Shown here: piece after piece, positions 3,411 to 22,653 of the stretch
How the letters are laid out: the number at the start of each line of letters is the position of its first letter
Numbering within the stretch: the first letter of the stretch is position 1
IMG/VR virus record: IMGVR_UViG_3300013233_000251
Location: 1 to 26,059 of that record
From: a virus
Strand: one strand, 5' to 3'
DNA: 26,059 bases
Made by a program: the position numbers and the translations under genes
Notes under the pieces: model-generated
Database searches by the model: none
Told to the model about the DNA's origin: nothing
What the model saw: only the letters and a program-made list of their open reading frames with translations

Positions 3411-3649
3411 TATTGATCACCCGCAGGCATCAGTGCGCAGGGATTGGCCGGATAAAGGCTATCGCGCATGGATTCGGCGCGTTGGCGGATGTCTGAGGCC
3501 ATATTGCTGATGGTGTGGCGCATTGATGCGCTATCATGCATGCAGGCAATCATCAGCAGTGAGGCGATCACTTCAATATCGTGGGCTTGTTTGGCCATTT
3601 GGCCATTGGTGGATTTGGGGATTGGGGACTGGGGGACGGCCTGATTCAT
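3410..3649 (-). CDS. Hypothetical small early protein after the antirepressor
   Basis: 79 residues; the ATG at 3649 overlaps the antirepressor stop (ATGA) and its own stop overlaps the recombinase start (TAATG). The first 20 or so residues (MNQAVPQSPIPKSTNGQMAK) come from a low-complexity tract of repeated CCCCAATCCCC and GGCCAAATGG type, so the N-terminus may have grown by repeat expansion. The rest (HDIEVIASLLMIACMHDSAS, then SNMASDIRQRAESM) is a Met-rich helical segment with no clear membrane span. The family is unknown. Confidence 0.55.
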   Translation of the reverse strand: MNQAVPQSPIPKSTNGQMAKQAHDIEVIASLLMIACMHDSASMRHTISNMASDIRQRAESMRDSLYPANPCALMPAGDQ

Positions 3650-4395
3650 GCGATCACCTCCAGTTCAAAGATTTCGGCCAGCTTGGTTAAGCCTTTCGGG
3701 GTGACCAATACCTGCTCGCGAATCTTTTGCATGCCGTCGGTATAGATTGTGACCACCTTATGCTCCAGCACGCCCTGTTCAATGCGCGTTTGATATGCCA
3801 GCCAGCTGGTGCCCATGCGGCGAAAAATCCAATTGTGCTCGTTTAACCATGCAAACATCTTTTTGGGCGGGATATGCAACACCTTGGCAACATCCGTGAT
3901 ACAGATATTGCCCGTGGTATCGGCAATACGATCATAAGCCGCCGCTTTCGGCTTGATCTGCTCGACCTGAGTTTCCAGATTTTTCGTTTCTTCTTGCAGG
4001 GCGTGAATTTTGGCACTGCTCATGATCAGTGCCTTTTGTATCAGCTCGTCATAGGTGAGTTCAGCCGGATGGTTGACCTGCTGCATGGCGATTGCTTCAC
4101 ACTTTCTGTACCAGCGGCGCACCTCTTTGCCTTTTTCTGAATTGCTCATCATGGCAATATCTTTGCCAGCGGCGATGGTGAGGTGGTATTCGATGGATGT
4201 TTGGCCTGTTGCTGAAAGCTCCCCTTTTTGGGTGAGCTTAATAAAATCCTTATTTTCGATCAGATCGGCGCGTTTGATTTGAGCCTTGACCCAGCTTGAA
4301 AAGTCGCGTCTGATTTCCAGAAAAACATGCAACTCTCTGGCATCGGTGGTTTGGTGAAGGATGGGGTGGTTATGTATTGTGGGTAAATCGCTCAT
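3646..4395 (-). CDS. ant: Phage antirepressor (AntA N-terminal domain and KilA-C/ANT C-terminal domain)
   Basis: A 249-residue P1-type antirepressor, which would inactivate the phage repressor and push the prophage to lytic growth. Residues about 12-85 match the AntA domain (TDARELHVFLEIRRDFSSWV, then LIENKDFIKLTQKGE and SIEYHLTIAAGKDIAMMSN); 115-150 are a coiled-coil linker; 150-245 match the KilA-C/ANT DNA-binding domain (AAYDRIADTTGNICITDVAK, then KMFAWLNEHNWIFRR and LVTPKGLTKLAEIF). The ATG at 4395 was chosen over an in-frame start at 4527 because GGAGG lies six bases upstream and the longer version would translate the C4 RNA. The leader holds a perfect 12-bp hairpin and sits just downstream of a C4-type antisense RNA. 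In P1, C4 RNA blocks ant translation by pairing with its leader. Family call strong; function by analogy. Confidence 0.9.
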   Translation of the reverse strand: MSDLPTIHNHPILHQTTDARELHVFLEIRRDFSSWVKAQIKRADLIENKDFIKLTQKGELSATGQTSIEYHLTIAAGKDIAMMSNSEKGKEVRRWYRKCEAIAMQQVNHPAELTYDELIQKALIMSSAKIHALQEETKNLETQVEQIKPKAAAYDRIADTTGNICITDVAKVLHIPPKKMFAWLNEHNWIFRRMGTSWLAYQTRIEQGVLEHKVVTIYTDGMQKIREQVLVTPKGLTKLAEIFELEVIA

Positions 4396-4688
4396 AGTGA
4401 GCCTCCAGTAGTCAGATGTGCGCCTTTTTTCGCTTCCAAACGAAAAAAGGCGGGTTGAACACGGGTTGGAAGACCGGGACCACTGGAAACCGGCGAGCGC
4501 GAAGGCTCCCCATGTCCAACCCACCAACTGCGGAGGCTGAACACGGACACAAAAAAACCACCTATCTTGCGATGGCGGTGGTGTCCGCCAGTAATCATCG
4601 AGCTTCCAAACCCGGTCGCCACTATCGCGGCAACGGGGCGAGACTGCGCCTTTATGTTGCGTTTTGTCAAGGGTGTGTGTTGCATCAT
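4392..4688 (-). CDS. Icd/Ash-like small protein overlapping the C4 RNA region
   Basis: A 98-residue frame that starts by overlapping the stop of the 114-residue gene (ATGATG at 4688) and stops by overlapping the antirepressor ATG (ATGA at 4392). This double coupling argues that it is translated. In P1 the small gene icd is coupled to ant in the same way, and many prophages have Ash or Icd-like ORFs here. The sequence is basic and low in complexity (SMITGGHHRHRKIGGFFVSV, then SPVSSGPGLPTRVQPAFFRL), which is expected because the same DNA must fold as RNA. It covers a terminator-like hairpin, the C4 RNA and the ant leader hairpin. It may be a division inhibitor, or simply a frame that couples ribosome passage to RNA folding. 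Confidence 0.5.
   Translation of the reverse strand: MMQHTPLTKRNIKAQSRPVAAIVATGFGSSMITGGHHRHRKIGGFFVSVFSLRSWWVGHGEPSRSPVSSGPGLPTRVQPAFFRLEAKKGAHLTTGGSL
4396..4452 (-). promoter_or_regulatory. Antirepressor leader: 12-bp hairpin and ribosome site targeted by C4-type RNA
   Basis: A perfect inverted repeat, CGCCTTTTTTCG (4421-4432) against CGAAAAAAGGCG (4441-4452), leaves an eight-base loop. On the minus strand the loop carries TTGGAAG, complementary to CTTCCAA in the C4 RNA (4466-4472). Downstream, the ribosome site GGAGGCT (4400-4406) is complementary to AGCCTCC (4532-4538) at the 5' side of the C4 core. These look like the paired antisense elements known from P1 C4 control. Confidence 0.7.
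4453..4545 (-). ncRNA. c4: C4-type antisense RNA
   Basis: A structured segment directly upstream of a P1-type antirepressor, matching the position and cloverleaf-like layout of the phage P1/P7 C4 antisense RNA. The closing stem is GGGTTGGA (4515-4522) with TCCAACCC (4463-4470). Inside are a GAGC/GCTC hairpin with a CTTCGC loop and a CCGG-flanked arm. Two stretches could pair with the ant leader: AGCCTCC (4532-4538) with the ant ribosome site, and CTTCCAA (4466-4472) with the loop of the leader hairpin. In P1, C4 is processed from the ant transcript and silences ant. Exact RNA ends cannot be seen and are approximate. Confidence 0.75.
4551..4582 (-). terminator. Terminator-like hairpin upstream of the C4 RNA (possible attenuator)
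   Basis: On the minus strand ACCACC pairs with GGTGGT across a 14-base loop and is followed by seven T residues. Flanking GGACAC and GTGTCC could extend the stem. It lies inside the 98-residue frame and before the C4 core, so it could limit read-through from the early operon into C4/ant, or be overridden by translating ribosomes. Confidence 0.55.
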
Positions 4689-5029
4689 GCCATCACCTGT
4701 CCGAATTCGAGCAGGACGGCGGGGGGCAGATCATCGTGGGCTGATCGGATGGTGCGGGGGATCAGCACGCAGGGGTAGCCGGTGAGGCTTGTCAGATCAA
4801 GAGGAATGCCCATCTCTGCCACGAATTCATGCTGCGCACCGGCATAGGTATAGGCCAGCCGCATCACATTGGCTTCATTGATTTTGTCGATCGTGAGGCG
4901 GAAACGAATCGCGCCAGGCAGTTCGATTTCCGAACCGGCACGCATATCAACCCAGTATCGCTTGGTATTCCAACCATCCGGCATGGGCGGATTCCATGCA
5001 TCCGCAAATCCCCGCCCCGTGGCGACCAT
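4685..5029 (-). CDS. Hypothetical early protein, 114 residues
   Basis: A soluble, mixed alpha/beta protein starting right after the preceding stop (ATG at 5029). It begins MVATGRGFADAWNPPMPDGW, continues through beta-like segments (AIRFRLTIDK, then MRLAYTYAGAQHEFVAEMGI) and ends in ILLEF-like hydrophobic sequence (DDLPPAVLLEFGQVMA). No catalytic motif, zinc cluster or membrane span is seen. I do not recognise the family. It lies between the CII-like regulator and the C4/ant locus, and its stop overlaps the start of the Icd-like frame. Confidence 0.6.
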   Translation of the reverse strand: MVATGRGFADAWNPPMPDGWNTKRYWVDMRAGSEIELPGAIRFRLTIDKINEANVMRLAYTYAGAQHEFVAEMGIPLDLTSLTGYPCVLIPRTIRSAHDDLPPAVLLEFGQVMA

Positions 5030-8470: not shown

Positions 8471-11322
8471 TGCCGTGACACCACTGTTTTATTGCCTGTC
8501 GTCACCACGGTTTGATCTATTACCGGGGTGACTGCATTGCCGACATAGCGACGGTTGACACCATCATCAACGGTTAGCGGGTTGGTCGGGTCAAGACCAT
8601 TCAATTTATGTAGTTCAGAAACTTGGGTAGCTGTTAAAGAGCTGTCGGGTGAAGTGTAATCCGCGGCGGCTAGCCTTGTATTCACCGTAGCTTCTTTCGC
8701 AAGCACCGTGCTTGCTTCGATCTGTGGTAGAGTGATTCCACTGCTACCTACTGTTGATATAGCGGCATCAAGATTGTTCAACCTTGCATCTGTAGTTAGC
8801 AAGGGGTTTGTCGGTATTGACGATAGCGTGTTACTCTCTGCTGTAGTCAGTCCACTAATGCCTGTTTGAGGCCCTTGATATACACGGGCATCAGGTACCC
8901 ACCAGACAGTTCCAGATGTGGAGGCTATAACATCAAGACCATCCGCCCGCTGCCATATTCCGGCTGTTATTTTTACAGGTGATGCGCTGACATTCTCAAG
9001 CTGCAATGAACCGTTAATAAGGATATTTCTAATGTCCGGTTTATACACTAGCGCAGATGGGTCATACACGGCAATGCCTTGCTGCGTCTGTGTGATATAA
9101 CGCCACCACGAAACGCCTTTGCGGGAGTCAAACAAGCCGTTCGGGTCGCCTACATCTATTTGTATATTGGCGAAATCTGCTTGTATTTCACCTGATGCAG
9201 GCGAAGCAATCTTATCCACTGTCATGCCATCCACGCCATACAAATTATACTCGACATCATCCACCTGAGAATCAAGGAAAGTAGCACCTGCTGATGTGAG
9301 CAAACCACTCAACACAAGAGGCATCTTAGCTATGGCTCCAGCTTGGTAACATGCCCTGACGCGTAGCGTTTTGTCTGCGCTATAGTTCAACGTGAATGCG
9401 TACCCATTGCCACCGGCCACAATGCTATTATCAATTTCCACCGAGTCTGTAACATTCCAAATCTGTACTCTTGTTCCATCAATCAGGTTGGGTGCTGTGA
9501 TATGAGCGGCGGTGTCAGTGATGTCGATGACGTTCGATATTTCCGTTCCACCAGCGAACAAATCCTGCCCAATATCGTGTAGTGCGCCGTTGATTGTTAG
9601 ATCATCAAACCACGCCTGCCCCGGGGCTCCAACGAGGTGCCCGTTGGCTGTCAGTGTTATCGTGGCCGTATGGTCGGCTACTGCGGCGGGCATCGTAATC
9701 GCCAACGTATCTACCACGCCAACGGCTGTAGTCATAAGCACGTTGTGCGTTGATTCACCAACCACGGTCAGTCCGGGCATGGGGCTGGGGTTGATGGCGT
9801 GGATATATGCTGCGTCTATATCAACCAACACGGACGCAGTGAGAATTTGCCCTGCCAAGACGGTCAGGCTGGTCGAATAGGTCAGTGGAATTAAAGCCGT
9901 GCCGCCCTTGCCGTCGATATTCAAATCCTGTGACTTTGGCTCGAACCGAATAGACGCTACTGGTGTGGACGCGCTTATAACGTGCGTCACATCCCGATAT
10001 ATCCTACCACCAGAAACCGCAACCATCTGATCTTTCGGGTCGCCAGATCGGTTGTTTATAATGATGGACTGTTCGCTTGTATTTGCCACCCAGAATGGAC
10101 TGCCAGACTGGTCGGGAATGCTGCACGAGTGCATTTGAACATCACCGTAGGAGCCGAAGAGGTTAAGCCAAGGATTGCCATCGAAGACCACATTATATAT
10201 GTCTAAATGACCACCAGATGTGTTAGCACTCAACCAGTTTAATGTTTTGCGAACGCGGCCACTGCGTATGGCGCATTTCCGTGGTCTTAACTGATCCAGC
10301 CACCGGCTTTGATGAATGCTAATGATATTACTAATGTCACCAATACCTACATCACCACGTAGGGCACCAAATGTATTCATTGAAAATAGCCCGTTGATTG
10401 TTGCCCACAACCAATTATTAGCGTACACTGCGTTCGCTGTTATCACTGCTGTTGATACAACACTTACGCGAAGAAAATCATAGCTGGAAGATTGTGTCCT
10501 AACTCCATTAAAACAATCAACAAATGTAACATCTATAATGTGCGTGCCCCTGTTCGCGGTTATATTCCATTCTTCGTTTAGTACAATCCCACCATCTCGG
10601 CGCCAACCACCATACCCTGCTTTCTCAACACATAATGTCTGCGCCCGCGTGACGTTTGTTTTTGTGGAATTAGTTCGGTTGACATAAATCCGTGTATTGG
10701 CTGCGCCGCTTGAGCCAATCCAGATAGGTTGCTCCATGTTGGCAATATAAAATGGAAGCGTCGTGCCATCCAGATCATAAGTAACTGCCGCAGCAAGCGT
10801 CACCTGTAACCCGGCAATGGCTGTGATTGTAGTAGTAAACATGGATGCCTGCTGACCATCTGCAAGTGCCTCAAACATAAGCCTGTCGCCAACCTGCCAT
10901 CCCGACACGCTGGCAACATGGATGATATTGCTACCCGTTAGCGTATCAGCGGTAAGGGTTGTATATTGCAATCTAACGTCAGTTGCTTTTGTGTAGAATT
11001 CGGCATCTTTAGTTAGTAATATTTCAGCCTGCCCGTTGGTGGCACAGACTAAATCTATTTTGGAGGAGACTCCTGCCAGAAGGGGTGATGCATCAGTACC
11101 GAAGTCGAAGATGCCGGTATCGTTTATATTTATATTGCCCGTGAGTGTGACTGCTGTTGATGCTGTACGAGATGCATATAGAATGCCGTTAATAGTGATG
11201 CTCTTGACCGCACCCATACCATCAAGCGTAAGAGTTACACCGGCGTTAATCGTCACATCATCCGCAGCAGTGATGCCGGATGCGCTCCAGTTTGCGTTCG
11301 CGGCGATAGTGATTGCTGCCAT
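8467..11322 (-). CDS. Large tail-fibre / beta-helix protein with G8-like N-terminus, 951 residues
   Basis: A long, Thr/Ser/Gly/Asn-rich, beta-dominated protein without membrane segments. The N-terminus (ANANWSASGITAADDVTINA, GVTLTLDGMGAVKSITINGI, then LYASRTASTAVTLTGNININ) resembles the G8-type beta module with paired strands and regular glycines. The middle (THIIDVTFVDCFNGVRTQSS, SIIINNRSGDPKDQMVAVSG) is consistent with a right-handed parallel beta-helix. The C-terminus (TQVSELHKLNGLDPTNPLTV) carries the ELHKLNGLD phrase common at the ends of phage structural proteins. It is probably a receptor-binding or surface-degrading fibre. No catalytic site is assignable. It lies after the lysis genes and is coupled to the 94-residue membrane protein by TAATG. 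Confidence 0.7.
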   Translation of the reverse strand: MAAITIAANANWSASGITAADDVTINAGVTLTLDGMGAVKSITINGILYASRTASTAVTLTGNININDTGIFDFGTDASPLLAGVSSKIDLVCATNGQAEILLTKDAEFYTKATDVRLQYTTLTADTLTGSNIIHVASVSGWQVGDRLMFEALADGQQASMFTTTITAIAGLQVTLAAAVTYDLDGTTLPFYIANMEQPIWIGSSGAANTRIYVNRTNSTKTNVTRAQTLCVEKAGYGGWRRDGGIVLNEEWNITANRGTHIIDVTFVDCFNGVRTQSSSYDFLRVSVVSTAVITANAVYANNWLWATINGLFSMNTFGALRGDVGIGDISNIISIHQSRWLDQLRPRKCAIRSGRVRKTLNWLSANTSGGHLDIYNVVFDGNPWLNLFGSYGDVQMHSCSIPDQSGSPFWVANTSEQSIIINNRSGDPKDQMVAVSGGRIYRDVTHVISASTPVASIRFEPKSQDLNIDGKGGTALIPLTYSTSLTVLAGQILTASVLVDIDAAYIHAINPSPMPGLTVVGESTHNVLMTTAVGVVDTLAITMPAAVADHTATITLTANGHLVGAPGQAWFDDLTINGALHDIGQDLFAGGTEISNVIDITDTAAHITAPNLIDGTRVQIWNVTDSVEIDNSIVAGGNGYAFTLNYSADKTLRVRACYQAGAIAKMPLVLSGLLTSAGATFLDSQVDDVEYNLYGVDGMTVDKIASPASGEIQADFANIQIDVGDPNGLFDSRKGVSWWRYITQTQQGIAVYDPSALVYKPDIRNILINGSLQLENVSASPVKITAGIWQRADGLDVIASTSGTVWWVPDARVYQGPQTGISGLTTAESNTLSSIPTNPLLTTDARLNNLDAAISTVGSSGITLPQIEASTVLAKEATVNTRLAAADYTSPDSSLTATQVSELHKLNGLDPTNPLTVDDGVNRRYVGNAVTPVIDQTVVTTGNKTVVSRQ

Positions 11323-11606
11323 TACTTACCCCTCGCGGCTTTAATTTCATCGCGTTTCAATTTCATTTCATGTTCAAGCTCACCCAGCCGTCGAATATCG
11401 GCATCTGATTTGCTACGGATGCGGCGTGTTTCCTGATAATCGCGCCACATTTGACGCTCATCGTACATCATCCACCTAACGGACTGCTCTGATTGATAGC
11501 GGTGATAGTCAGCCGCAAGCACAACATTCGTCGCAGCCCACCAGACACCAGATACGACTGGGATTATTACAGCAAGGATTGCGCCATAGCGTTGCCAGAC
11601 GGTCAC
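11322..11606 (-). CDS. Membrane-anchored coiled-coil protein, 94 residues
   Basis: One N-terminal membrane segment (about residues 8-28, GAILAVIIPVVSGVWWAATN) is followed by a charged helical domain (YHRYQSEQSVRWMMYDERQM, then RLGELEHEMKLKRDEIKAAR). The N-in/C-out topology with a coiled-coil tail resembles an inner-membrane spanin or the small membrane proteins that often follow phage holins. No overlapping lipoprotein partner (Rz1 type) was found, so the spanin idea is tentative. It is coupled by ATGA to the holin. Confidence 0.6.
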   Translation of the reverse strand: MTVWQRYGAILAVIIPVVSGVWWAATNVVLAADYHRYQSEQSVRWMMYDERQMWRDYQETRRIRSKSDADIRRLGELEHEMKLKRDEIKAARGK

Positions 11607-12037
11607 TTCTTACCCACCCACTTTGTAACTAATCCTGTTATTGCATCGGCTGCGACGGGGCCACCAAAATAGAACAGCAGAACAACGCCCATGATTGAGT
11701 TGTCATTGTTAGCCTGCTCAGTCATAAGCTTTCCTGCCGCTAATAGTTGCTCGGTTGGTATCCATATATATGCAAGTTTAAAACCCATTGCCGCAATATG
11801 CTCAACGCTCCAGATCGAGAATGTTCCAAGCGATAATAGTCTGCGAGCCAACCTGCTGCCCGAAGTAGAGCGTAGCCACTCCATGTAAACAGTCATACCC
11901 TCTGATCGTGCTTTAGCCCCGTCATCCGCCTTTTCCTCATCGGTATAGAACATCTTATCTATGCCATTGCTGACACCATCAATGATCTTCTCTCCTGCTT
12001 TAACCCCGCCGAACAAGTTTCCTAATAAACCCCACAT
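11603..12037 (-). CDS. Phage holin, 3TM / GTA-type
   Basis: 144 residues from ATG at 12037, one base after the preceding stop (TGATATG); the in-frame start at 12064 would overlap the previous gene. MWGLLGNLFGGVKAGEKIID, then an acidic stretch (MFYTDEEKADDGAKARSEGM) and GSRLARRLLSLGTFSIW resemble the 3TM holin family known from gene-transfer-agent release. Hydrophobic segments lie around residues 77-92 and 119-137 (SIMGVVLLFYFGGPVAADAI). It should form membrane lesions that let the signal-less lysozyme (13026-13436) reach peptidoglycan. Family by recall of the motif layout. Confidence 0.75.
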   Translation of the reverse strand: MWGLLGNLFGGVKAGEKIIDGVSNGIDKMFYTDEEKADDGAKARSEGMTVYMEWLRSTSGSRLARRLLSLGTFSIWSVEHIAAMGFKLAYIWIPTEQLLAAGKLMTEQANNDNSIMGVVLLFYFGGPVAADAITGLVTKWVGKK

Positions 12038-12038
12038 A

Positions 12039-12260
12039 TCAAGGTTTGTGTGGCGGAGCTGCATTCGAGTCCGTCCAAAATCTTATAGCTGCAATCACGG
12101 CAAGCACTATGCTGCCATAATACGCTAACTGCCACTGTGTTAGTGATGTTATGTGGCTGTTCACAAATTGGTAAGCATCCCAACCCCAGTACATCATAAA
12201 CAGCAACAGAGCCACGGTGATAACTCTAAATGCTCGCATGATATGCAGTAGTTGAAGCAT
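12039..12260 (-). CDS. Two-span membrane protein in the lysis cassette, 73 residues
   Basis: The ATG at 12260 overlaps the preceding stop (TAATG). Two hydrophobic segments are evident: residues about 11-27 (FRVITVALLLFMMYWGWDAY) and 43-61 (WQLAYYGSIVLAVIAAIRFW), with a short loop and a Pro-rich polar end (TDSNAAPPHKP). This is the size and topology of class II holins or of antiholins. Because a 3TM holin follows directly, it may modulate lysis timing. No family assignment. Confidence 0.6.
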   Translation of the reverse strand: MLQLLHIMRAFRVITVALLLFMMYWGWDAYQFVNSHITSLTQWQLAYYGSIVLAVIAAIRFWTDSNAAPPHKP

Positions 12261-12826
12261 TAGGTTATCTCACTGCGAATAGCTACGCTCATGGCGTAAC
12301 CTTCACTGATCCTATCGCCGGGCTTCCAGTAGTTTCTGTACTTGTCACCCGCCGCCAGTACATCTCCCGAGCCGATATGCACGGCTGGGTTAAGTGCCCA
12401 AATCTTAGGCCCGAATGCATAGCGGATATACTTGGGGCCTACTTTAATGTGCCCATATCTGAATACGCGCTTGGTGCTGTCGCCTTGAAGTATTACCCAT
12501 GACTTATAATTACCAGCAGTATGTTCGTCATCTTTATTGCGCCACACTTCTTTAATTATACCGTGTGCTCCATAAGAGAGCCCTAGATTATGGGCGGGGT
12601 TACGGATAGCCAGCCAGTAATAGCGAGGGAACGCCTTGGTTAGAAAGTTATCCGGCATGGTGATCATGGGATTCGTGCCAAAGTCACCCCCTAACCCATC
12701 TACGCTGTTGCCATACACTGAGTCGAGTAGATTCAGCCTGATGGCATCTTTCTTGGTGATAAGCAGCAAAATAGGCAGCAGCAAGATTCCACCAAAGTAT
12801 GCTACTAATAATGTAATTGCTTTCAT
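12260..12826 (-). CDS. Phage protein with N-terminal membrane segment, 188 residues (DUF7338-like?)
   Basis: An N-terminal hydrophobic segment (MKAITLLVAYFGGILLLPIL) acts as anchor or signal. The rest is soluble and aromatic: FLTKAFPRYYWLAIRNPAHN, SYGAHGIIKEVWRNKDDEHT, then YGHIKVGPKYIRYAFGPKIW. The IRNPAHNL phrase recalls a widespread uncharacterised phage family, DUF7338 in my recollection, found near lysis and tail genes. The ribosome site TAGGAGAG overlaps the stop of the 29-residue gene. No catalytic residues identified, and its job is unknown. Confidence 0.6.
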   Translation of the reverse strand: MKAITLLVAYFGGILLLPILLLITKKDAIRLNLLDSVYGNSVDGLGGDFGTNPMITMPDNFLTKAFPRYYWLAIRNPAHNLGLSYGAHGIIKEVWRNKDDEHTAGNYKSWVILQGDSTKRVFRYGHIKVGPKYIRYAFGPKIWALNPAVHIGSGDVLAAGDKYRNYWKPGDRISEGYAMSVAIRSEIT

Positions 12827-12835
12827 ATTACTCTC

Positions 12836-12925
12836 CTAGTTGATGTGCAGATTAGCTAATACGAGCCACACAAATGCAATCCCGAAAACGGCAATGATTC
12901 CTAATAACCAATATAATGTTGTCAT
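12836..12925 (-). CDS. Tiny single-span membrane protein, 29 residues
   Basis: ATG at 12925 with a perfect GGAGGTAAGAA ribosome site. The product starts MTTLYWLLGIIAVFGIAFVW and ends LVLANLHIN, essentially one membrane helix with minimal ends. Its stop (TAG) is part of the next gene's ribosome site (TAGGAGAG). Position and ribosome site make it very probably real despite the size. It follows a similar 31-residue protein and may be a small lysis or membrane factor. Confidence 0.7.
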   Translation of the reverse strand: MTTLYWLLGIIAVFGIAFVWLVLANLHIN

Positions 12926-12928
12926 TTC

Positions 12929-13024
12929 TTACCTCCATCCACCAGCGTTATTCATTACATACCAGAATATTCCGAGTGCAGTTACTATCACTACAACGCC
13001 GATAATCATTAATACATTGTCCAT
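12929..13024 (-). CDS. Tiny single-span membrane protein, 31 residues
   Basis: The ATG at 13024 lies one base after the lysozyme stop, preceded by GGGAGGTTTAAC. The product (MDNVLMIIGVVVIVTALGIF, ending WYVMNNAGGWR) has a single hydrophobic helix, about residues 4-23, a negatively charged start and a positive end. Its last codons contain the next gene's ribosome site. Located between endolysin and holin, it is a candidate lysis-timing protein. No family known to me. Confidence 0.7.
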   Translation of the reverse strand: MDNVLMIIGVVVIVTALGIFWYVMNNAGGWR

Positions 13025-13025
13025 G

Positions 13026-13436
13026 TTAAACCTCCCACTTGCCAGTAGTCATCATCTTGCTCAACTCTACCGCGCGCTTACCAACCTGATATGCCCAGCG
13101 ACTATCAAGCATCTCTGCTGCTGCATGCTGGTACATGCCCATTGCAATATGCTCTATTGTTTTCTTGAAGTGCTTAAAGCCTGCAATACCCATGTTGAAT
13201 ACCATATCAATTACTACTGCCTGCCTAACTTCATCCAGCCCTTCAAACCAGTAAAGTCCCTTGCAGTCCTCAATGGCATCTGCAATATCGTCATTGAGTA
13301 TCTGTTGCACGGCGGCGGGGGATAAAGGCTTAGCTTGCAAATTGTGGCCTACCCCAACAGTCCAAATACCTAAGCTGTCTCTATAGGCTTTACTTCGTAT
13401 CCCTTCATGCATAATCAGCAGTTCTTCAATAGTCAT
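13026..13436 (-). CDS. T4-type lysozyme (endolysin, glycoside hydrolase 24)
   Basis: 136 residues cleaving the peptidoglycan MurNAc-GlcNAc bond for host lysis. The catalytic triad matches T4 lysozyme in motif and numbering: E11 (IMHEGIRSKAYRD), D20 and T26 (DSLGIWTVGVGHNL). The C-terminal domain includes VVIDMVFNMGIAGFKHFKKT. There is no signal peptide, so it needs the holin (11603-12037). It is coupled by ATGA to the preceding Cys-rich gene, and its stop is followed one base later by the 31-residue membrane protein. It lies soon after gpD, where R-pyocins and related phages also carry lysozyme. Confidence 0.95.
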   Translation of the reverse strand: MTIEELLIMHEGIRSKAYRDSLGIWTVGVGHNLQAKPLSPAAVQQILNDDIADAIEDCKGLYWFEGLDEVRQAVVIDMVFNMGIAGFKHFKKTIEHIAMGMYQHAAAEMLDSRWAYQVGKRAVELSKMMTTGKWEV

Positions 13437-13681
13437 TTAGTATCTCCAGTCTTATAGTGTATGCAATAAGGGCTACCACAACCGTTAAAGCCGGCCGGCA
13501 TATTGTCACAACGCTTACCACAAGGGTTCATATCCCGGTGCCCGGTCGCTTCACGTAGTAATGCAACAAGACAGTAGTCACCAGCAGAGCATAGGCGTGA
13601 ATCATTACAACCATGATTGCACCGCTCCCCATGTCCTGCATAATGGCAGCTATCTGGCTTTAGCTGGTCAGCGTGGGCCAT
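13433..13681 (-). CDS. Cysteine-rich small protein, 82 residues
   Basis: Nine cysteines (residues 12, 21, 25, 31, 37, 54, 58, 68 and 73) and many His (HADQLKPDSCHYAGHGERCN, then GHRDMNPCGKRCDNMPAGFN). There is no signal peptide, so metal binding is more likely than disulphides. The ATG at 13681 follows ACAGG at a short distance. It stops by overlapping the lysozyme ATG (ATGA). Phage late regions sometimes carry such Cys-rich proteins without known role. Confidence 0.6.
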   Translation of the reverse strand: MAHADQLKPDSCHYAGHGERCNHGCNDSRLCSAGDYCLVALLREATGHRDMNPCGKRCDNMPAGFNGCGSPYCIHYKTGDTK

Positions 13682-13708: not shown

Positions 13709-14053
13709 TCATGGATTGACTCCTTTCAACCGCGAGATGATGTTGTCTTTCTGTTCGAGCTCGTGCTCCAACTCCCACTGCATGTGTGCGACAAGTCCAT
13801 GCTTGTTATCTTCTATATCCCCCCGCATTGCTTTGTGCGCGGCCTCATTCTGGCGCATCATTTCATGAAGCGATGCTGTGTTGCCAATCACCTGATACCA
13901 CAACGCCCCGCTCATAAAAATAATGCCAGCGAGAAATGTATAGACCTGCCAATCGGGTCGTTTTTGCGGCAAATGTTCCGGCAATCTCGAATCCAGCATC
14001 TCGTTGATCTGAACCAATATCCCCGCCAATCTGCGTTCCGTCGCGTCTGTCAT
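13709..14053 (-). CDS. Membrane protein with cytoplasmic and coiled-coil domains, 114 residues
   Basis: An N-terminal helical region (MTDATERRLAGILVQINEML), one membrane segment at about residues 37-55 (VYTFLAGIIFMSGALWYQVI) and a long charged helix (MMRQNEAAHKAMRGDIEDNK, then WELEHELEQKDNIISRLKGV). The topology fits a spanin-like or Mu-Gp25-like phage membrane protein. No signal-anchor lipoprotein partner was recognised. It is coupled to gpD by ATGA and lies directly before the lysozyme group, so a lysis-associated role is likely but unproven. Confidence 0.6.
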   Translation of the reverse strand: MTDATERRLAGILVQINEMLDSRLPEHLPQKRPDWQVYTFLAGIIFMSGALWYQVIGNTASLHEMMRQNEAAHKAMRGDIEDNKHGLVAHMQWELEHELEQKDNIISRLKGVNP

Positions 14054-21855: not shown

Positions 21856-22653
21856 TTATAGGGGGATGTAGGCAATTTCAACGGGATCATATCCAGCGTG
21901 TTGAATCCCTGTGGGTGCATGGGCTGGAGGGACGCGCGGACTTGCCGTTAGACTTGAATGGTTGTACGGGTTGGCTGCCCGTGCTGACATAAGCAATTCA
22001 ATTCCACCAATAATAATTTTATCTTGATTTGTGCTGCTGGTGCCTTCACCCCACCCACCTGGGCGTCCTTGCGTTGTTACCCTGACCAATAACGCATTAA
22101 CAGATGTGACCGTTACAGTAGATCCCCAATGCGCCCCGGTAGCGTAGTTTACTTTTGTAATGGATGGGGCTGCGTATAAAGCATTCATCGCTGTCGTGCT
22201 GGCAATTACAGCATTCATCGCTGTCGTGCTGGCTGCAACCGCATTCATTGCTGTCGCGCTGGCAGCAACCGCATTCATCGCTGTCGTGCTGGCAATTACA
22301 GCATTCATCGCTGTCGTGCTGGCTGCAACCGCATTCATCGCTGTCGTGCTGGCTGCAACCGCATTCATCGCTGTCGTGCTGGCTGCAACCGCATTCATCG
22401 CTGTCGTGCTGGCTGCAACCACATTCATCGCTGTCGTGCTGGCAATTACAGCATTCACCGCTGTCGTGCTGGCAACTACCATTGTCATGCCTACAGCCGA
22501 ACCAAACAGGATATTAAGCTGGTCTAGGTCGGTTGTGCTAGTAGATGCCGATGTGCCTGCATCAATAGCAGGCAGCTTGGCAAGCAGATCATCAATTGTC
22601 TGACTACCACCGCTTTGATTAAGTTTTGCCAATATGGCTGCTTCGAGACTCAT
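21856..22653 (-). CDS. Repeat-containing tail-fibre protein, 265 residues
   Basis: N-terminal helix (MSLEAAILAKLNQSGGSQTI, DDLLAKLPAID), a central array of ten decapeptides (VAASTTAMNA with small variants, about residues 58-157) and a beta-rich C-terminal domain (ATGAHWGSTVTVTSVNALLV, GWGEGTSSTNQDKIIIGGIE, SPRVPPAHAPTGIQHAGYDP) that may bind a receptor. The decapeptides could form a trimeric coiled or beta-roll shaft. The gene follows the YD-repeat protein (stop/start overlap near 22653) and precedes the 149-residue protein. Confidence 0.7.
   Translation of the reverse strand: MSLEAAILAKLNQSGGSQTIDDLLAKLPAIDAGTSASTSTTDLDQLNILFGSAVGMTMVVASTTAVNAVIASTTAMNVVAASTTAMNAVAASTTAMNAVAASTTAMNAVAASTTAMNAVIASTTAMNAVAASATAMNAVAASTTAMNAVIASTTAMNALYAAPSITKVNYATGAHWGSTVTVTSVNALLVRVTTQGRPGGWGEGTSSTNQDKIIIGGIELLMSARAANPYNHSSLTASPRVPPAHAPTGIQHAGYDPVEIAYIPL
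22181..22480 (-). repeat. Ten tandem 30-bp repeats in the fibre gene
   Basis: Ten contiguous units from 22181 to 22480, each GCATTCATCGCTGTCGTGCT plus ten bases that alternate between GGCTGCAACC and GGCAATTACA (one GGCAGCAACC and one GGCAACTACC). The first 20 bases are identical in seven of the ten units. The period is a multiple of three, so copy-number change would keep the reading frame. There is no spacer, so it is not a CRISPR. Confidence 0.97.

Follow-up and report, generated by a model that had tools for sequence, protein, structure and literature searches.

Two credible genes for 31- and 29-residue membrane proteins in the lysis cassette of an uncultured virus

Organization of the lysis cassette

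The sequence studied is a 26,059-base virus record (IMG/VR virus record IMGVR_UViG_3300013233_000251; at its full length, the window), with the region of interest on the minus strand. Along that strand the gene order is tail gene D, g114, g82, lysozyme, m31, m29, g188, g73, hol153, g94 and a 951-aa fibre-like gene. These genes share one strand and are tightly packed, and no terminator-like site was found on the minus strand of the region. The gene order, lengths and coordinates proposed in an initial annotation of this DNA were all reproduced. The features of the cassette are:

g114, 13709..14053, minus strand: one span, C-terminal part charged; between tail gene D and the lysozyme
Endolysin (lysozyme), 13026..13436, minus strand: T4-lysozyme type (PF00959, E 6e-14)
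m31, 12929..13024, minus strand: predicted 31-aa single-span membrane protein, ATG start, SD GGAGGT
m29, 12836..12925, minus strand: predicted 29-aa single-span membrane protein, ATG start, SD GGAGGT
g188, 12260..12826, minus strand: DUF7338 protein with an N-terminal membrane anchor (PF24027, E 2e-8)
g73, 12039..12260, minus strand: 73-aa two-span protein with relatives in three other lysis cassettes
hol153, 11603..12064, minus strand: holin-like (phrog_9646, E 7e-20); start probably at 12037
g94, 11322..11606, minus strand: N-terminal membrane span and charged tail; 75% identical relative in cassette L084

The tail sheath is 81–95% identical to sheaths on several IMG/VR contigs, and 87% identical to the sheath on a contig binned as a Mariprofundaceae bacterium. 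The same bin contains a copy of g73 with 86% identity. These two matches suggest that the host is probably a zetaproteobacterial iron oxidiser and place the cassette in viruses of the Mariprofundaceae. Viruses closely related to this one by their tail genes have exchanged their lysis genes.

The lysozyme has no SAR or signal segment (the maximum 17-residue hydropathy is 0.45 for segments starting in the first 40 residues), and because it lacks a membrane segment it needs a hole-forming holin. The protein encoded by hol153, initially annotated as a 3TM holin, is indeed holin-like, but has about two hydrophobic spans and an amphipathic start rather than three spans. It has no Pfam match at E 1, including to GTA_holin_3TM (PF11351), and matches only the unnamed phrog_9646. 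Its probable start lies immediately past g73, and it has relatives in Vibrio phages, one of them directly 3' of a lysin. The relative of g94 in L084 is downstream of a different holin; g94 has the shape of an inner-membrane spanin and is a possible candidate for one. No Pfam match above the cut-off was found for g114.

Several further features were seen in and around these genes. An 82-aa ORF upstream of the lysozyme (13433-13681, minus strand) is Cys-rich and has a codon score of -0.30, with another frame scoring better; out-of-frame short hydrophobic ORFs at 13641-13528 and 13521-13426 overlap this region. A fibre-like protein encoded at 21856-22653 (minus strand) contains about 10 near-identical repeats of the type (A/I)ASTTAMNAV. 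In a related lysozyme cassette (L002:3399-4585), a 61-aa ORF with the start of a GTA-type holin is followed by an HNH-like 217-aa ORF and then by a complete GTA-type holin. This holin gene looks as though it was interrupted, apparently through either homing endonuclease insertion or duplication.

m31 and m29 are very likely genes

The predicted m31 protein is MDNVLMIIGVVVIVTALGIFWYVMNNAGGWR and the predicted m29 protein is MTTLYWLLGIIAVFGIAFVWLVLANLHIN, which contains no Asp, Glu, Lys or Arg. Each comprises one hydrophobic span and almost no soluble part. The ATG of both genes sits 5 nt past GGAGGT. The SD of m31, GGGAGGTTTAACATG, is embedded in the final codons of the lysozyme gene, the SD of m29, GGAGGTAAGAAATG, includes the TAA stop of m31, and the TAG stop of m29 doubles as the first part of the g188 SD (TAGGAG). 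The SD sequences and meshed stops are thus as quoted in the initial annotation.

m31 and m29 are the sole ATG ORFs of 20–45 aa with an SD of at least 6 nt on either strand of the window, and in tandem they exactly fill a 199-nt gap in a packed operon. Markov simulation gives an expectation of 0.00022 single-span ORFs with such an SD per 220 bp, or 0.0058 when the membrane requirement is dropped. The codon-usage score is positive for both genes. The m29 frame is clearly favoured, being the only one on its strand with a positive score, and m31 shows a marginal preference, with other frames scoring nearly as high. We saw no support for m31 and m29 being paralogues (shuffle fractions 0.14–0.19).

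Could the two be chance ORFs? The failure to find relatives of m29, and a codon score that does not single out the m31 frame, would be in keeping with this, but two strong tandem signals fill the 199-nt gap, against a simulated expectation of about 2e-4, and m31 has a probable relative (below). We therefore regard a chance origin as very improbable. From the SDs, the simulation and the tandem arrangement, m31 and m29 are very likely real, translated genes, in agreement with the original proposal of two mini-genes within the lysis cassette.

A probable distant relative of m31

Cassette L084, which was reached through g94, runs from a peptidase through a 97-aa ORF, a 66-aa ORF (one span) and a 31-aa ORF to a GTA-type holin and g94. 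The 31-aa ORF (L084:3144-3239; MNTGLLILGVTTASGVFGVVWYVIERSDERR) is immediately upstream of the holin. It aligns with m31 end to end without gaps, with 10/31 residues identical, including a common GV, G and WYV. Its start overlaps the preceding stop and its own stop falls inside the next SD, GGAGGTAA, as with m31. Among 2709 mini membrane ORFs from the fetched loci it ranks first against m31 (score 52, next 42), and shuffles that preserve hydrophilic positions attain this score with a frequency of 4e-4. The shared place, length and residues make homology between the two probable, although not certain, as the match involves a single distant pair of hydrophobic peptides.

Wider searches were largely empty. 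tblastn of m31, m29 and g73 against 50,697 phages gave zero matches, and none of the three rises above noise in Pfam or PHROG; their families seem to be undescribed. Against 78 zetaproteobacterial genomes m31 and m29 gave weak matches only, mostly to pieces of larger membrane proteins. With a two-row profile of m31 and its L084 relative, the best hit in the same genomes (E 0.0015) fell at the N-terminus of a protein that is open-ended (53 aa or more) and has no phage context, and it was rejected. A candidate upstream of a holin in genome G078 was likewise discarded: it is the final part of a longer protein that probably has two spans and runs off its contig. Among the 118 matches listed for the DNA pattern WYV...GGAGGTAA in viral contigs, such a peptide is encoded only by the known L084 case. 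For m29, no relative was found in the 50,697 phages, the 78 zetaproteobacterial genomes or the related loci, and hence there is no sign of selection on its protein. The initial annotation had named lack of conservation as grounds for rejecting either mini-gene; m31 has a probable distant syntenic relative, and m29 has none that we found.

Of 28 endolysin loci, only that of Pseudoalteromonas phage AL had a free-standing mini-span ORF preceded by an SD of 5 nt or more. The arrangement is thus uncommon under this filter, which is strict and also misses coupled ORFs that lack an SD.

g73 is conserved beside a variable slot

Relatives of g73 with 62–88% identity occur in three other lysis cassettes (C304, L039 and L034). 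The endolysins that precede g73 in the four cassettes are unrelated to one another: GH108 in C304, DUF5675 in L039, Amidase_3 in L034 and the T4-type lysozyme in the window. Between the window and its relatives pS is 0.77–0.90 and pN is 0.08, indicating purifying selection. Downstream of g73 lie, in C304 and L039, genes for an Rz-like protein and a lipoprotein, a spanin pair by shape, and in L034 one for a 187-aa holin-like protein. From these comparisons g73 is the conserved core of the cassettes. It is a small two-span protein in a lysis cassette, as class II holins are, and because its spans and neighbours fit we infer that it is likely to be a class II holin or an antiholin. On the same sequence comparisons it is a better candidate holin than hol153, and we name it the likely core holin of these viruses.

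In C304 and L034 nothing lies between the endolysin and g73. In the window this slot contains m31, m29 and g188, and in L039 a two-span ORF of 54 aa and a single-span ORF of 40 aa, the latter coupled by TGATG directly upstream of g73. Different viruses thus place different small membrane genes in the slot beside a conserved two-span protein, and the comparison identifies m31 and m29 as optional parts of that slot in Mariprofundaceae viruses. A copy of a palindromic repeat, ATTCCCGCGAAAGCGGGAAT, lies within the L039 lysis cassette (L039:3940-3990), where it encodes the C-terminus of the 40-aa mini-ORF.

g188 belongs to DUF7338

The 188-residue membrane-anchored protein of the initial annotation has its anchor at the N-terminus and belongs to DUF7338, scoring 34.5 bits against PF24027 (cut-off 27). 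A tblastn search of g188 against the 50,697 phages found nothing, and an AlphaFold prediction of g188 alone gave no usable model (pLDDT 38). In the zetaproteobacterial genome G013, a relative with 40% identity has a lysozyme gene and a holin-like gene as neighbours and no mini-gene beside it, and a distant relative in G241 stands immediately before Rz/Rz1-like genes. Tail regions also harbour DUF7338 members, and a T4-like phage has one at a distance from its lysis genes. By genomic position, DUF7338 genes are often, but not always, near lysis genes. On the reverse strand of L073 (about 3635-4970 of the reverse complement) a DUF7338 gene is found just 5' of an Rz/Rz1-like pair, which hints at a lysis link.

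Possible roles of m31 and m29

Our leading interpretation, to which we assign a probability of roughly 0.4, is that m31 and m29 encode optional single-helix membrane partners that most likely modulate a holin (g73 and/or hol153). Among the roles proposed in the initial annotation, a lysis-timing factor is thus the likeliest guess. Judging from their sequence signals, both would be expressed late, with translation passed on from the lysozyme gene, and each product is predicted to be one inner-membrane helix. Membrane-only peptides could not by themselves release the lysozyme unless they changed the bilayer or the holin. The helix may instead pack against another phage membrane protein, likeliest the holin-like g73 and/or hol153, and this packing would shift the timing or mode of holin triggering, in the manner of an antiholin or co-holin. 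The unusually strong tandem signals and the placement within the lysis cassette are consistent with such a role. The holin-like proteins are the likeliest partners because in L084 the mini-gene is directly before a holin, with no DUF7338 gene, and in L039 a mini-ORF precedes g73. m31 and m29 lie on the same strand as the holin-like genes, with which they may be co-expressed, and g73 behaves as expected of a core holin in lying behind four unrelated endolysins under purifying selection. Against modulation count the half of the g73 cassettes (2/4) that have no such mini-gene, the failure to find a relative of m29, the reliance of m31 on one distant match, and the position of g188 between the mini-genes and g73 in the window.

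This last point means that the mini-genes could belong with g188. m31, m29 and g188 may form one moron-like accessory membrane module, in which the mini-proteins serve the DUF7338 protein as small subunits or partners and have the host envelope as their target (superinfection exclusion, for instance) rather than lysis. The endolysin runs directly into g73 in C304 and L034, so that m31-m29-g188 looks like a single insertion, the m29 stop forms part of the g188 SD, and the DUF7338 members of tail regions and the T4-like phage fit a role outside lysis. Conversely, the 31-aa L084 relative manages without a DUF7338 gene, the G013 DUF7338 gene manages without an adjoining mini-gene, and DUF7338 adjoins lysis genes in two further genomes (G013 and G241). 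We regard such a module as the main and a serious rival, if somewhat unlikely. A translational relay, in which ribosomes passed from each stop to the following SD determine how much g188 and g73 is made while the peptides themselves are inert, would explain why every stop lies in or beside the next SD. We consider it quite improbable: RNA structure at the gene starts was nothing beyond chance and does not hide the downstream SDs, both peptides are full hydrophobic spans that a relay does not need, and m31 and its L084 counterpart have residues in common and not just an SD.

The remaining possibilities concern direct roles in lysis. Single hydrophobic helices beside an endolysin, one of them without formal charge (m29), might themselves permeabilise the membrane as minimal single-span holins or pinholin-like peptides. 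This is improbable, since a large periplasmic domain marks the known single-span holin class, pinholins are partners of SAR endolysins (PMC9636201), and the same operon holds better candidates in g73 and hol153. Membership of holin class III does not agree with 31 or 29 residues and no soluble domain, nor does membership of the pinholins agree with one span each, against two in the S21-68 type; the pinholin-like role suggested in the initial annotation is thus unlikely beside a lysozyme with no N-terminal hydrophobic segment. A releasin assignment also fails, as m31, m29 and g94 have no DUF2730 match and the endolysin is not SAR. The initial annotation had further suggested spanin partners, and the window cassette has no recognisable spanin pair for which an o-spanin, i-spanin or part of a u-spanin might be sought. 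This is contradicted by the peptides themselves, which have neither a lipobox nor a coiled coil nor room for a periplasmic domain; moreover, there is no plausible lipoprotein on the minus strand between 10.8 and 14.3 kb, and the relatives have ordinary Rz-like and lipoprotein genes after g73. We give a spanin role almost no weight. With pinholin, releasin and spanin roles not fitting, helix packing in the inner membrane is what is left.

As holin regulators, the two helices would be lysis-timing factors of very small size that are easily tested. A bolder and rather doubtful extension is that viruses of Zetaproteobacteria have a family of single-helix holin regulators of ~31 residues, with m31 and the L084 peptide as its first members and m29 as a second regulator; few known proteins devoted to lysis timing would be as small.

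Comparison with known systems

Described holin classes have 1–3 spans, and pinholins work with SAR endolysins (PMC9636201). The pair of pinholin S21-68 and its SAR endolysin likewise places a small hydrophobic protein by an endolysin, but with two spans and a SAR partner in place of one span and a soluble lysozyme. The Mu gp25 releasin (DUF2730) is also a single-span protein encoded a few genes downstream of an endolysin; however, it has 99 aa and a cytoplasmic domain and releases SAR endolysins (PMC9239132), and m31 and m29 have no such domain. For g188, the profile match to DUF7338 is above the cut-off, and members of that family are also found outside lysis cassettes.

In F1 mycobacteriophages, the single-TMD LysF1b and the two-TMD LysF1a of one cassette jointly set lysis timing (PMC13056207). 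The window similarly combines single-TMD and two-TMD proteins in the same lysis cassette, for which the F1 pair is a precedent, but LysF1b is described as having a distinct size and topology, and its host is Gram-positive (PMC13056207). Closest in size and span to m31 and m29 are the 30–32-aa single-span proteins beside holins in Pseudoalteromonas phage AL (QIG62426.1) and phage C72C1 (WJE88137.1), whose cassettes combine a related lysozyme (43% identity) with a holin, as here. They differ in lying downstream of the holin, show no convincing similarity to m31 or m29 (shuffle fractions 0.05–0.77) and are annotated without an assigned function. The initial view that the mini-proteins are of a type not described thus holds in part: the specific families appear undescribed, but the kind is already annotated in AL and C72C1.

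Many small proteins of phages are known (reviewed in PMC11323111), and small membrane proteins in lysis cassettes are already known as a kind. To these, the present finding is a credible, modest addition: two genes about as small as gene finding can reach, from a lysis cassette of uncultured viruses of probable iron oxidisers.
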